Below, in pieces: positions 18,585 through 51,087 of a DNA stretch of 55,269 nucleotides. Under the pieces are notes generated by a model. It was given only the letters and a program-made list of their open reading frames with translations. It was not told the origin of the DNA and ran no database searches. Source of the DNA: Chloroflexi bacterium OHK40 (GTDB lineage Bacteria; Chloroflexota; Chloroflexia; Chloroflexales; Chloroflexaceae); the NCBI GenBank assembly GCA_004367505.1, contig SFCB01000045.1:1-55269 (forward strand), in the 5' to 3' direction. Made by a program: the position numbers and the translations under genes. Positions within the stretch are counted from its first letter, which is position 1. Every line of letters begins with the position of its first letter.

Positions 18585-21500
18585 TCAGGCGGCCCGGGCC
18601 GTGGCCTTCGGCTCATCGACGGTGCCCTCGGCGGCATTTTCGATCCTGGCCACCGCATCGCGCGGCACAACGGCCCAGAAGCGCCCTCGGTAGTTCTCCC
18701 AGCGTGAGAGGATCTCGGCGCCGCGAGGGCTACCGGTAAGCTCAACGTGCCGGCGGAGGAGCGCCTGGATGCGGGCCTCATCACGAGATGTGAGCGGCTG
18801 CATCTCGACGAGCTGGGGGTTATAGCGCTGGGCAAAGGTGCCGGCTTCGTCGAGCACATAGGCGGTGCCGCCCGTCATCCCGGCGCCGAAATTGCGCCCG
18901 GTAGCGCCAAGGATCACCACGGTGCCACCCGTCATATACTCGCAGCCGTGGTCGCCAACGCCTTCCACAACGGCATTGGCGCCACTGTTGCGCACGGCAA
19001 AGCGCTCGCCAACCTGTCCGGCGGCATAGAGCTCGCCGCCGGTGGCGCCATAGAGCAGCGTATTGCCGGCGATGGTGTTCTCGTGCCAGGCGAAGCGGGC
19101 CCCGGGACCGGGCGTGATCGCAATCAAGCCACCGGCCATCCCCTTGCCAACATAGTCGTTGGCGTCGCCCGTGAGGTGCAACTCCATACCGGGGGCATTG
19201 AAGGCGCCGAAGCTCTGCCCAGCGCTACCGTGCAGCTTGATCACGATCGTACCGGCGGGCAATCCTTTATCGCCGTAGAGCTGGCCGATCGTACCGGCGA
19301 GGCGCGTACCGACGCTGCGGTCGCGGTTGCGGATGGCGTAGCTGAGCGTCACGGGGCCACGCGCGGCCAGGGCGCCACGAGTATCGTGCATGATCCGCTC
19401 ATTGAGGCTCTCCTCGGGGGGTAGCGGGTTACGCCGTCCGTTGTGGCGAATCTCGTTACCGGCGATCATGCGTGCGGCGCCGAGCAGCGGCGTGAGGTCG
19501 AGATCATCGGCGCCCGGCAGACCGCTGGCGCGCTGACGCAGCAGATCGGTACGGCCGATCGCCTCGTCGATCGAGCGCAGGCCATTGGCAGCGAGCAACT
19601 CGCGCACCTCCTGAGCCAGATAGCGGAAGAAGGCCATCACCATCTCGGGCTTACCGGGGAACTTGGCCCGCAAATCCTGGCGCTGGGTCGCGATGCCAAC
19701 GGGGCACGTGTTGTTGTGGCAGGCGCGAGCCATAATGCAGCCCTCCGCGACGAGGGCCGCAGTGCCGAAGGAGAACTCATCGGCACCGAGCAGGGCGGCC
19801 ACGAGCACATCGCGCCCGGTCTTCAGGCCGCCATCGGCACGCAGGCGCACCCGGGCGCGAAGCCCATTGAGCACCAGGGTTTGCTGGGTCTCGGCGAGGC
19901 CGAGCTCCCAGGGCACACCGGCATTCTTGATGCTGCTCAGGGGCGAAGCGCCCGTACCGCCGGCGTGGCCACTGATCAGGATGCAGTCGGCGTAGCCCTT
20001 GGCCACACCGGCGGCGATCGTCCCGACGCCTGCAGTGGCCACCAGCTTGACCGAGATGACGGCGTTCGGATTAGCCTGGCGCAGGTCGTAGATCAGCTGG
20101 GCCAGGTCTTCGATGCTATAGATATCGTGGTGTGGCGGCGGCGAGATCAGGGCCACACCGGGCACCGTATGGCGAATGCGGGCGATCTCCTCGTTGACCT
20201 TGTGGCCAGGGAGCTGGCCACCCTCGCCGGGCTTGGCGCCCTGGGCCATCTTAATCTGCAGCTCGCTGGCGCTGGCGAGGTACGCGGGCGTCACCCCGAA
20301 ACGCCCCGAAGCCACCTGCTTGATCCTGGAGTTGCGCTCGTCTTTGTAGCGCTCGGGAGCCTCGCCGCCCTCACCGCTGTTGGCCATGCCGCCCAGGCGA
20401 TTCATCGCGATCGAGAGCGTCTGATGGGCCTCCAGGCTGGTCGAACCGTGGCTCATGGCGGCGGTGCTGAAGCGGCGAACGATCTGCTCGATCGGCTCCA
20501 CCTCATCGAGGGGGACGGGGGGCGCAGCGGGGAGGATCTCGAGCAGATCGCGCGGCTCGGTGGGCGTACGGCTCTGAACCAGGGTCGCGTACTCGCGGTA
20601 GGCCGCGTAGCCCTCGGCGCTCACCCCGGGGCCGTGGCTATCGCCGTTGAGCGCGTGGGGGCCTTGCACCGCCTTGTGGAGCGCGTGCACCACCTGGGGG
20701 CTAAAGGCGTGGTACTCGCCGTCCTTCTTGAACTTGTAGAAGCCGGGGTGCGGGAGCGCAGCCGCGCGCCGGGCGGCTACCACCTCGCCAAAGGCCCGCC
20801 CATGGCGCGCCAGAACGTCCTGCTCGATCCTGGCGAAGCCCACGCCACCGATCCGCGAGGGAGTGCCGGTGAAGCAGCGCTCGACGAGATCCTGGTCGAG
20901 GCCGATCGCCTCGAAGATCTGGGCGCCGCAGTAGCTATCCAGGCTGGCGATGCCCATCTTCGACATCGTCTTTAGCAGGCCCTTTTCCAGGGCGTGGACG
21001 AAGTGATGCTCAGCCTCCTCGGCGAGGGTCAGCGAGCGCGGGTCATCGGCGAGCTTCTCAACGGCGCCGGCGGCCTTCTGCTTGACCGCATCGCGATCGA
21101 CGGCGAGCTGGCGCACGCTGGCGAGGGCCAGGTAGGGGTTTACGGCCTCGGCGCCATAGCCCACAAGGCAGGCAAGGTGATGCACCTCACGCAGCTCACC
21201 CGTTTCGCTGAGCAGGGAGCAGAGCGTCCGCAGGCCAGCGCGGATCAGGTGGTGATGTACCGCGCTCACGGCGAGCAAAGCGGGGATGGGCGCGCGGGCA
21301 GCATCGACGGCACGGTCGCTCACGATGACGATCGCGGCGCCAGCGCGGACGGCGGCCTCGGCCTCGCCACAAAGACGCGCGACGGCGTGGGGCAGAGCGC
21401 CCACCTCCCCAACGGGGAAGGTTGCATCAACGGTAGCAGCGCGCAGCAGCGGATCGGGGTAGGCGCGGAGGGCCGCGAGCTGGGCATCGGTGAGCACGGG

Positions 21501-23231
21501 CGAGCTAAGCTGGAGCAGATGCGCGTGCTCGGGCGTCTCCAGGAGGATGTTGTAGCGCCGGCCCACAGCCACGCTGAGCGACATGACCAACTCCTCGCGG
21601 AGCGAGTCGATCGGCGGATTGGTCACCTCGGCGAAACGCTGCTTGAAGTACTGGAAGAGCGGGCGGCCGAGCTCCAGCTGAGAGAGCACCGCCACGGGCG
21701 TATCGTCGCCCATGGAACCGACGGGCTCCTGGCCGGTGGTGGCCATAGGCTTGAGGATTACGTTAAGTTCCTCGGAGGTATAGCCGAACGCCATCTGGAG
21801 CGCTGGCAGATGAGCGCTGGGCGCCTGGAGATCAGCGGCAGTGGGGGACACCTCGGCACCATGCGCCCGGCCATCGGCAAGCTGGCGCAGATGCTGGCCG
21901 ACCCAGGCCTCGTAGGGCTGGCGGGCCGCGAGGAACTCCTTGACATCCTCATCGGTGAAGAGGCGACCGGCGACGGTATCCACGGCGATCATCTGGCCCG
22001 GGCCGAGCTTGCCCTTATGGACGATGCGCTCCTCAGCGACGGCCACAGCGCCAACCTCCGAGCCGGAGATGACGAGACCATCGTCGGTCACAATATAGCG
22101 GGCAGGCCGCAGGCCATTGCGGTCGAGGGCGGTGCCAACCACCCGGCCATCGGAGAAGGTCAGCGCGGCGGGACCATCCCACGGCTCCATAAGGCAGGCG
22201 TGGTAGCGGTAGAAAGCGCGCAGTGCGGGGCTAAGATCGCGCACCTTCTCCCAGGCCTCGGGCACAAGCATGGCCAGGGCATGGCGGATATCGCGGCCGC
22301 CGAGCACGAGCAACTCGAGCACGTTATCCAGGATCGCCGAGTCGGAGCCACGCTCGTCGAGCACGGGCGTGATCGGCGTCTCGGCCAGGAGCTCGGCTGG
22401 CAGCCAGCCCTCGGGCAACTGGAGGTTGGCGTAGCGGGCGCGCATCCAATTGATGTTGCCCTGCACCGTATTGATCTCACCGTTGTGGGAGAGCATCCGG
22501 AAAGGCTGGGCCCGCTCCCAGGTGGGGAAGGTATTGGTCGAATAGCGCTGGTGGTAGACCGCAAGGGCCGTGGTATAGGCCGGATCGCGCAAGTCGGGGT
22601 AGAAATCGGCGAGGTTCGTCCCGAGCAGCAGGCCCTTATACACGATCGTCCGGGCGGAGAGTGAGGGCACGTAGGCGGCAATGGCGTGCGTGTGGAACGC
22701 GGCCTCGATCGCCTTGCGGGCCAGGTAGAGGGTACGCTCGAAGGCCGTATCGTCGAGGCCGGCGGGGCGAGCGATGATCGCCTGGCGGATGAAGGGCATG
22801 GCCTCACGGGCGCGCTGGCCAAGGGCCTCGGGGTTGAGCGGTACGTCGCGCCAGGCGAGCACGGCCGCGCCACGGGCGGCGAGCGCCTGGGCGACGATGG
22901 TACACGCTGCGGCACGGGCGGCCTCGTCCTGCGGCAGGAAGAAGACACCTGCCGCCAGGTCGCCGGGGGCGGGGGCGACGATCCCACGGGCCTGCAACTC
23001 CCGCCGCAACAGCTCACGGGGGAGCTGAGTAAGCACACCGGCGCCATCGCCCGTCCTGGCGTCGTCGGCGACGGCGCCACGATGCTCAAGGTTGCTGAGG
23101 GCCTCCAGGGCCATCGCGAGGATGGCATGGCCGGGCTGACCGTCGATCCGGGCGACAAAGCCGATCCCGCAGGCATCGTGCTCGAAGCGCGGGTCGTACA
23201 GGCCGTGGGCGTCTCGCGGGGGGAGATGCAT
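18585..23231 (-). CDS. gltB: Glutamate synthase large subunit
   Basis: 1548 aa, full length. The enzyme makes glutamate from glutamine and 2-oxoglutarate. ATG 23231 is chosen because GAGGTGG precedes it and it puts the class II amidotransferase Cys at position 21 (FEHDACGIGFVA), to be exposed by propeptide cleavage. The order is glutaminase domain (FRMLSHNGEINT near 235), central domain, FMN domain (ISGHAGGTGASP), the 3Fe-4S motif in CIMARACHNNTCPVGIATQ, and the C-terminal GXGXG beta-helix. No gltD small subunit lies next to it, so the electron source is elsewhere (a distant gltD or ferredoxin). Transcription should start at the consensus promoter 335 bases upstream and pass a leader terminator. 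Confidence 0.97.
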   Translation of the reverse strand: MHLPPRDAHGLYDPRFEHDACGIGFVARIDGQPGHAILAMALEALSNLEHRGAVADDARTGDGAGVLTQLPRELLRRELQARGIVAPAPGDLAAGVFFLPQDEAARAAACTIVAQALAARGAAVLAWRDVPLNPEALGQRAREAMPFIRQAIIARPAGLDDTAFERTLYLARKAIEAAFHTHAIAAYVPSLSARTIVYKGLLLGTNLADFYPDLRDPAYTTALAVYHQRYSTNTFPTWERAQPFRMLSHNGEINTVQGNINWMRARYANLQLPEGWLPAELLAETPITPVLDERGSDSAILDNVLELLVLGGRDIRHALAMLVPEAWEKVRDLSPALRAFYRYHACLMEPWDGPAALTFSDGRVVGTALDRNGLRPARYIVTDDGLVISGSEVGAVAVAEERIVHKGKLGPGQMIAVDTVAGRLFTDEDVKEFLAARQPYEAWVGQHLRQLADGRAHGAEVSPTAADLQAPSAHLPALQMAFGYTSEELNVILKPMATTGQEPVGSMGDDTPVAVLSQLELGRPLFQYFKQRFAEVTNPPIDSLREELVMSLSVAVGRRYNILLETPEHAHLLQLSSPVLTDAQLAALRAYPDPLLRAATVDATFPVGEVGALPHAVARLCGEAEAAVRAGAAIVIVSDRAVDAARAPIPALLAVSAVHHHLIRAGLRTLCSLLSETGELREVHHLACLVGYGAEAVNPYLALASVRQLAVDRDAVKQKAAGAVEKLADDPRSLTLAEEAEHHFVHALEKGLLKTMSKMGIASLDSYCGAQIFEAIGLDQDLVERCFTGTPSRIGGVGFARIEQDVLARHGRAFGEVVAARRAAALPHPGFYKFKKDGEYHAFSPQVVHALHKAVQGPHALNGDSHGPGVSAEGYAAYREYATLVQSRTPTEPRDLLEILPAAPPVPLDEVEPIEQIVRRFSTAAMSHGSTSLEAHQTLSIAMNRLGGMANSGEGGEAPERYKDERNSRIKQVASGRFGVTPAYLASASELQIKMAQGAKPGEGGQLPGHKVNEEIARIRHTVPGVALISPPPHHDIYSIEDLAQLIYDLRQANPNAVISVKLVATAGVGTIAAGVAKGYADCILISGHAGGTGASPLSSIKNAGVPWELGLAETQQTLVLNGLRARVRLRADGGLKTGRDVLVAALLGADEFSFGTAALVAEGCIMARACHNNTCPVGIATQRQDLRAKFPGKPEMVMAFFRYLAQEVRELLAANGLRSIDEAIGRTDLLRQRASGLPGADDLDLTPLLGAARMIAGNEIRHNGRRNPLPPEESLNERIMHDTRGALAARGPVTLSYAIRNRDRSVGTRLAGTIGQLYGDKGLPAGTIVIKLHGSAGQSFGAFNAPGMELHLTGDANDYVGKGMAGGLIAITPGPGARFAWHENTIAGNTLLYGATGGELYAAGQVGERFAVRNSGANAVVEGVGDHGCEYMTGGTVVILGATGRNFGAGMTGGTAYVLDEAGTFAQRYNPQLVEMQPLTSRDEARIQALLRRHVELTGSPRGAEILSRWENYRGRFWAVVPRDAVARIENAAEGTVDEPKATARAA

Positions 23232-23559
23232 CGCGTACCACCTCAAAACAGTACTTGAAACGGCAGACGCTCGCCGCGCCCTCAGGGGGCTGAGGGTGGG
23301 GCGAGCGCCATTCTCGGATATAGCCGCCACGGGGGCGGATACGGGTGCGGCCCCCACGGCGCTGCGGCGCGCCGGCGGAGGCTGGTTCGGGCGATCGGGC
23401 GCCCGTCCGGCCGGGAGGGCCGGGGGAGCGGGCCTGGAAGAACACCGCGGGCCGAAAGGAAGACCGGATGCGAAAAAGCGCCCCTGAGCTCCAGTCGTTG
23501 AGCGTCAGGCGGCGTCGTTGCGCTCCGCGCGCTTCTGGGTTAAGCGCAAGTTGGTATTG
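23232..23559 (-). other. Long structured 5' leader of gltB
   Basis: About 328 bases between the predicted start site and ATG 23231. It begins with competing short hairpins (TTGCGCT 23549-23543 with AGCGCAA 23524-23518, or GCGCTT with AAGCGC inside it). An intrinsic terminator follows, then about 240 GC-rich bases. I do not recognise a known riboswitch class. No leader peptide rich in one amino acid was found. Confidence 0.55.
23473..23514 (-). terminator. Intrinsic terminator inside the gltB leader (candidate attenuator)
   Basis: Read on the minus strand, CGCC-g-CCTGA-c-GCTC pairs with GAGC-TCAGG-GGCG (13 pairs, two one-base bulges, 8-base loop) and is followed at once by CTTTTT. It lies about 45 bases after the predicted start site and 240 bases before gltB, with no other minus-strand gene for it to end. 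Confidence 0.65.
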
Positions 23560-23565
23560 ACGGGT

Positions 23566-23595
23566 ACTATACCGTACCTGTCTAAGTTCTGTCAA
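23566..23595 (-). promoter_or_regulatory. Promoter of gltB
   Basis: On the minus strand a perfect TTGACA (23595-23590), an 18-base spacer and TATAGT (23571-23566). Confidence 0.75.
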
Positions 23596-42803: not shown

Positions 42804-43196
42804 GGGGCGTACAACGTGCTGGGGGTAGAGCCGGCAAGCGCGCGGGTCGCGCAGGCGATAGGGAGCAGCCCGCGCGTGGCGTGTGCGAAACGATGGAGCC
42901 ACTACGGTGGCTGAAGCGCATCAGAACGCCACCGCGTGCGGTTCTCCGATTCCTGGTTCCCGGTTCTTGCGCTCGATGGTGCCCCGTGCTGCCGTGAATG
43001 GACCAGTTTCGAACCTGCATGGAGCAGGTGGGTGCCCGTCTGTGAGCATCTGCGGCCCGCCGCATAGCTCAGCTCGTAAGAACAGGGCTCCCATCGAAAC
43101 CGTGTTGGCTCAAAACACATGCCCACCCACGGGCAGCCAGGGCATGCGGATGGTACCACGCTCACTGGTGAACCGCAAGCAGGAAGAGGCCCGGGC
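42804..43196. other. Intergenic with a repeat and a tRNA-like fragment
   Basis: About 390 bases. It has repeat copy 2 at 42918-42970. Around 43059-43125 there is a TAGCTCAG and a GTGTT...AACAC arm resembling a tRNA, but the acceptor and anticodon stems do not pair. No gene called. Confidence 0.5.
42918..42970. repeat. Dispersed AGAACGCC/CCTGGTTCCCGGTTC repeat, copy 2
   Basis: CAGAACGCC, a short link, GCGGTTCT, then TCCTGGTTCCCGGTTC. Same arrangement as 39431-39480. Confidence 0.7.
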
Positions 43197-50502: not shown

Positions 50503-51087
50503 CTAGGAACCGAGGAGCTCCTCGGCCTCAATAATCGCCTGGGCGATATCGCGCATCTTGGCGCGCTTGTCGCGAGCGCGCTGGCGCAGGCGCTCGTAGG
50601 CATCACGCTCGTTGAGGCCGAGGCGCTGCATCAGGATGCCTTTGGCACGCTCGATGAGCTTGCGCGCCTCCAGCGAGTCCTCCAGCTCCGTCACCTGGGC
50701 GCGCAGAGCCTGGATCTCGCGGAAGCGGGCCATCGCGATATTGATCGCGGGGGGCAACTCGTTCTCGTTGACGGGCTTGACGAGGTAGGCCAGCGCACCA
50801 GCGGCCTCGGCCTTTTTGATCGTCTCTTTGTCCGCGTAGGCCGTGAGCATAATGATCGGCACTGGCGCGATGTCGCGGATGCGGGCGGCAGCCTCGGTGC
50901 CCTCCATCTCCGGCATGCGGATATCCATAATGATCAGGTCGGGCTTGAGGCGCGTGGCCAGGTTCACCGCCTCGGCCCCTGAACGGGCGATCCCGATCAC
51001 ATCGTAGCCCAGCCCCTTTAGCTGCTCCTCCAGCGTAAGGGAGACGAGGTCGTTGTCCTCGGCGATCAAGATTCTGACGGGAGCCAC
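50503..51087 (-). CDS. Response regulator with ANTAR RNA-binding domain
   Basis: 194 aa from GTG 51087 after AAAGGTG. Residues 1-120 are a receiver domain: ILIAEDNDLV, acceptor Asp in LIIMDIRMP (about 54), LTAYAD and YLVKPVNE. A short coiled coil leads to the ANTAR domain (about 130-190): ARKLIERAKGILMQRLGLNERDAYERLRQRARD, with the conserved Ala and aromatic position. ANTAR domains bind paired hairpins in mRNA leaders and prevent termination. The kinase partner could be any of the kinases in the window; none is directly next to it. The structured leaders nearby do not show the known dual-hexaloop ANTAR site. Confidence 0.93.
   Translation of the reverse strand: MAPVRILIAEDNDLVSLTLEEQLKGLGYDVIGIARSGAEAVNLATRLKPDLIIMDIRMPEMEGTEAAARIRDIAPVPIIMLTAYADKETIKKAEAAGALAYLVKPVNENELPPAINIAMARFREIQALRAQVTELEDSLEARKLIERAKGILMQRLGLNERDAYERLRQRARDKRAKMRDIAQAIIEAEELLGS

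Follow-up and report, generated by a model that had tools for sequence, protein, structure and literature searches.

A probable ANTAR-type transcription attenuator in the gltB leader of Chloroflexales

Known ANTAR-target RNAs are small hairpins with an A at loop position 1 and a G at position 4 (A1/G4), one of which excludes a leader terminator, and they typically lie before nitrogen genes (PMC3369931). In the EutV-RNA structure, G4 is the sole base-specific contact and the minimal site is a single hexaloop (PMC8934654), and the linker between hairpins measures 5-12 nt in eut RNAs and 2-25 nt in actinobacteria (PMC3369931, PMC8164766). Ramesh et al. (2012) described ANTAR targets before glutamate synthase and further nitrogen genes of Desulfotomaculum (PMC3369931), which share with the leader reported here the kind of target gene and the use of several copies, but belong to a different phylum; the main text of that paper does not mention Chloroflexus/Chloroflexi or Roseiflexus. 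The nasF leader with NasR and the amiE leader with AmiR also represent nitrogen-linked antitermination with a hexaloop at the leader terminator; NasR carries a NIT nitrate-sensing domain, whereas the Chloroflexales candidates are REC-ANTAR proteins.

The gltB leader analysed here resembles the eut RNAs of Enterococcus, Listeria and Clostridium (PMC3369931, PMC8934654) in that a terminator lies in the 5′ leader, the loops have A or another purine first and G fourth and are closed by a C-G pair, and one mini-hairpin excludes the terminator. Likewise, EutV and the protein encoded in the window are both REC-ANTAR proteins with recognisable RNA-contact positions. Unlike in eut RNAs, which have the second loop 5′ at the terminator base, the second loop in Chloroflexales lies in the terminator apex, which counts against an ANTAR reading; in addition, this loop has 7-8 bases in many Chloroflexales, loop position 1 is often G, and a gltB leader contains up to three modules. 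We think that the leader probably switches gltB on and off in response to nitrogen, by a mechanism of a known type whose parts are newly arranged.

The window, that is, the whole 55,269-nt stretch of DNA from Chloroflexi bacterium OHK40 that was analysed, carries gltB on the minus strand (18585..23231, ATG at 23231), as it does all the leader features described below. Pfam/NCBIfam matches identified the gltB product as a full glutamate synthase large subunit, and the gene is preceded by a leader of 334 bases. TTGACA-18-TATAGT at 23595-23566 was the only sigma-70-like match in 2 kb (0.2 expected from shuffling), with transcription expected to start at about 23559; the scan of these 2 kb found no second promoter upstream of gltB, and the upstream gene is divergent (23670, plus strand). 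The preliminary description, which had placed this promoter about 335 bases before gltB and had seen no preceding minus-strand gene, was therefore correct on both points. The same promoter type heads nearly all gltB leaders of the relatives. Comparison of leaders also revealed a recurrent 5′ sequence, YTTAAMC, to which CTTAA at 23540..23544 belongs: 19 of the 41 gltB leaders carry YTTAA in their initial 60 nt, compared with a frequency of 0.03 per 60 nt elsewhere. In the relatives YTTAAMC sits shortly 3′ of the -10 box, and it bears a faint likeness to boxA.

The intrinsic terminator T1 (23473..23514) consists of a stem at 23514-23479 and a U tract at 23477-23473. Its fold, CGCC(g)CCTGA(c)GCTC-AACGACTG-GAGC/TCAGG/GGCG, has 13 pairs and is followed by C and five T, which is the 13-pair hairpin with CTTTTT noticed earlier, and none of 200 shuffles matched its stability of -21.7 kcal/mol (z -3.3). 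A simple terminator scan did not list T1, probably because of its bulges. Overlapping the 5′ arm is a mini-hairpin, P1 (23509..23523), with the sequence GCG-C[AACGAC]G-(c)-CGC and an A1/G4 hexaloop at 23519-23514. P1 shares 23513-23509 with T1, so the two structures are mutually exclusive. The apical hairpin of T1, P2 (23488..23503; GCTC[AACGACTG]GAGC), also has A1 and G4, in a loop of 8 bases. Two features of P1 count against an ANTAR reading: its stem in the window has just 4 bp with a bulged C, and T1 greatly exceeds P1 (-2.5 kcal/mol alone) and the apical hairpin combined in stability, so that the alternative fold would require a protein to prevail.

Measured against known ANTAR targets, the window combines a mini-hairpin (P1) exclusive with the leader terminator, a short linker of 5 nt between P1 (end 23509) and P2 (start 23503), and three ANTAR proteins in the same genome. 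A strict definition, however, asks for two six-base A1/G4 loops; P1 fits it, and the leader of the window falls outside because the second loop has 8 bases instead of 6. Two such loops were seen in leader L049 and in leader L044, whose genome we take to be Herpetosiphon-like, where CTGC[AACGAC]GCAG followed by CC[AATGAA]GG appears in the MFE fold as a canonical dual hexaloop. In our best reading of the sequence, the leader of the window would function in the manner of an ANTAR target, though it is not a proven one.

To follow these elements in relatives, as the preliminary description had suggested, gltB leaders were compared from about 50 genomes, and 41 non-redundant ones were counted. Relatives of this Chloroflexales genome include records of Chloroflexus islandicus, Candidatus Viridilinea, Oscillochloris and Roseiflexus; assignments to other taxa, Herpetosiphon and C. 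aurantiacus among them, are presumptive. A terminator-like hairpin was present in 38 of the 41 Chloroflexales leaders, compared with 15.8 in shuffled sequences, and the leader terminators totalled 62, against 18 in shuffles. The earlier claim of a terminator inside a long gltB leader therefore holds beyond the window, and this conservation of a promoter-proximal terminator makes attenuation likely. The first terminator has an apical CTC-[AAYGAnn(n)]-GAG across leaders. In the 19 leaders with a P1 equivalent, position 4 was always G and position 1 always a purine (19/19 each), and G stood at position 4 in 16/17 equivalents of the apical P2 loop. Because the anchors of these tallies were placed by hand and eye, we also ran an automatic rule with dinucleotide shuffles. 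By this rule, 40% of the 62 leader terminators carried C[RNNGNN]G at their 5′ base (9.9% shuffled), 29% had an apical loop with a purine at position 1 and G4 (R1/G4; 5.8% shuffled), and 8/62 had both, compared with 0.4% of the shuffled ones. Counting against an ANTAR reading, the automatic rule found no P1 at a terminator in 17/41 leaders. A scan for P1 overlap with strict Watson-Crick pairing retrieved only 1/41 leaders; it was too strict, since most P1 stems contain a bulge or mismatch, and was replaced by the automatic rule above, which is looser and was applied alike to the shuffles. Module-1 sequences were too diverse for reliable alignment. A1/G4 hexaloop hairpins with at least 4 Watson-Crick bp numbered 20, compared with 3.2 +- 1.7 and a maximum of 8 in 100 shuffles, and coding sequences of the ammonium transporter gene amt showed no excess (9 versus 9.7). 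A strict G4 with a looser position 1 in the Chloroflexales leaders fits the G4-only contact in the EutV-RNA structure.

The T1/P1 theme is repeated downstream by a middle hexaloop hairpin and a module close to gltB. The middle hairpin, CGGCGC[GCCGCA]GCGCCG (23357..23374; G1, G4), was recognised by leader comparison in 12 leaders; all 12 have G at position 4 and 11 have a purine at position 1, with a variable stem and variable remaining loop bases. The second P1-terminator module of the window (23255..23322) comprises P1′, CGAG[AATGGCG]CTCG (23316-23302), and a terminator stem at 23308-23267. The rough consensus of this gene-proximal module (module 3) is GCGAnAATGRYGCTCGCC...CCTC[..]GAGG...GGCGAGCG. 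In its terminator stem, 94.4% of cells were paired and 7 pairs had changes on both sides, a level of covariation matched by 0/500 shuffles, and its P1 paired in 76.8% of cells, compared with at most 45% when slid. A covariance model of the module, R1, recognised module 3 of the window with an E value of 5e-11, although the window sequence is part of the model. Most genomes of the family to which the window belongs gave a match before gltB, and matches in other families of the order were weak; over 61 genomes, strong matches occurred before gltB only. Of the weaker matches elsewhere, those that we inspected fell within or close to unrelated ORFs, and we rejected them as chance. In the window, the T tail of this module (23266-23257) is poor and the apical loop is reduced to CCCC; the functional module there is therefore likely to be the first. 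In the genus of L018, the last module is present alone, in a 158-base leader. The modules thus look interchangeable.

Concerning the protein partner, an ANTAR domain was found in 41/41 Chloroflexales genomes searched and in 0/14 control genomes, laboratory E. coli being one of these. Three ANTAR proteins are encoded in this genome, one of them inside the window (50503..51087, minus strand). Domain and structure matches show that this candidate antiterminator is a response regulator with REC and ANTAR RNA-binding domains (E 5e-38 to EutV, 6wsh/6ww6; E 9e-49 to the putative antiterminator 1s8n). At the RNA-contact positions of EutV, it keeps Y164, R168 and R175 and has K for R177; in place of EutV M172 and N173 it has R and D, and the other two have M-N, and the three proteins may, judging from these residues, differ in loop preference. 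The gene lies 27 kb from gltB and is not adjacent to it, which counts against an ANTAR reading. Among other Chloroflexota, a gltB-leader terminator was found in 16/19 genomes with ANTAR and 6/20 without (p = 0.001, in a test that ignores kinship); G132, scored as lacking ANTAR (94% complete genome), carries the motif.

The conserved R1/G4 mini-hairpins exclusive with the terminator, together with the ANTAR proteins, point to ANTAR-type antitermination, and we consider it probable that gltB is controlled through its leader acting as a transcription attenuator of ANTAR type. By default, RNA polymerase would start at the 23595 promoter and stop at T1 or, in relatives, also at one or two further terminators before gltB. 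An activated ANTAR response regulator would bind the emerging C[RNNGNN]G mini-hairpins, P1 at the 5′ base and P2 at the apex; P1 would then sequester the 5′ base of the terminator and keep its stem from closing, and gltB would be transcribed. We infer ANTAR binding and this direction of control, and the signal would be nitrogen status, reaching the regulator through phosphorylation of its receiver domain. More tentatively, and with the balance somewhat against it, Chloroflexota might have a distinct ANTAR geometry with serial modules and the second receptor loop in the terminator apex, in which the terminator hairpin itself would be read by the protein.

A leader conserved with its terminators and loops would also be expected if the attenuator were read by a different RNA-binding protein or by a nitrogen metabolite, for instance glutamine, with the loops as its recognition sites; loops of 7-8 bases and the unexplained 5′ YTTAAMC element fit such a reader. 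We judge this unlikely, since both the R1/G4 pattern of the loops and their co-occurrence with ANTAR domains favour ANTAR, no large conserved ligand-binding core was seen, and a covariance search with Rfam 15, the other check suggested earlier, matched no family, with riboswitches, T-boxes and leaders included, in the gltB leader and the relatives searched, at gathering or permissive thresholds. The statement that no known riboswitch is recognised stands as far as Rfam is concerned, but a protein-bound hexaloop target of ANTAR type is recognisable. The sole Rfam match in the window was a 6S RNA (42977-43146, minus strand; 65 bits).

Less likely still are constitutive hairpins without a switch, acting as partial terminators, as 5′ stabilisers that set the gltB mRNA level or as the point where a short leader RNA ends. 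The stability of the terminator over alternative folds and the poor T tail of the last module in the window (23266-23257) agree with this, but a constitutive terminator needs neither conserved mini-hairpins exclusive with it nor a fixed loop G4 amid varying neighbours, and a second promoter upstream of gltB was not found. Finally, the antiterminator first proposed, in which GAGCG (23525-23521) pairs with CGCTC (23504-23500) in response to an unspecified signal, is very improbable: the pairing exists (-5.8 kcal/mol alone), but none of the relatives read keeps it, including those that share promoter, terminator and apical loop.

Returning to ANTAR-type control, the regulon is likely, though with less certainty, wider than gltB. 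The amt leaders of the family contain R1/G4 hexaloop hairpins, mostly CTGC[RNNGNN]GCAG; hairpins of this form were seen in L104, L105, L108, L140, L143, L146, L150, L153, L156 and others, often two per leader at about -250 and -110. A promoter-plus-loop pattern gave 51 matches compared with 2 when reversed, a difference inflated by real promoters, and we report as leads only the clade-conserved matches, which precede genes for binding proteins of the branched-chain amino acid type (Chloroflexus) and of the PnrA/Bmp type. In L209/L210 and L211/L214/L215, C[RNNGAY]GC loops that come after a promoter lie upstream of ABC binding-protein genes (Peripla_BP_6; Bmp/PnrA), accompanied in L214 by a leader terminator. 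Some glnA leaders have terminators, and clear R1/G4 loops were not found in them. Just 5′ of the glnA ribosome site, AGGACC-n-GTTCGTYCTG is conserved in five family genomes (L115-L119); it is possibly a small hairpin and is duplicated in L116. In a Roseiflexus-like genome (G042, contig C1, 3736914-3740306), glnA, amt and gltB adjoin.

We found no earlier report of ANTAR control of nitrogen assimilation in Chloroflexota. If the ANTAR reading is true, an RNA element that Rfam lacks would become available for searches, and the tolerance of ANTAR proteins for seven- and eight-base loops and for G at loop position 1 would become testable. The ANTAR proteins of all Chloroflexales genomes searched would gain a concrete target, and ANTAR control of nitrogen assimilation would extend to Chloroflexota.
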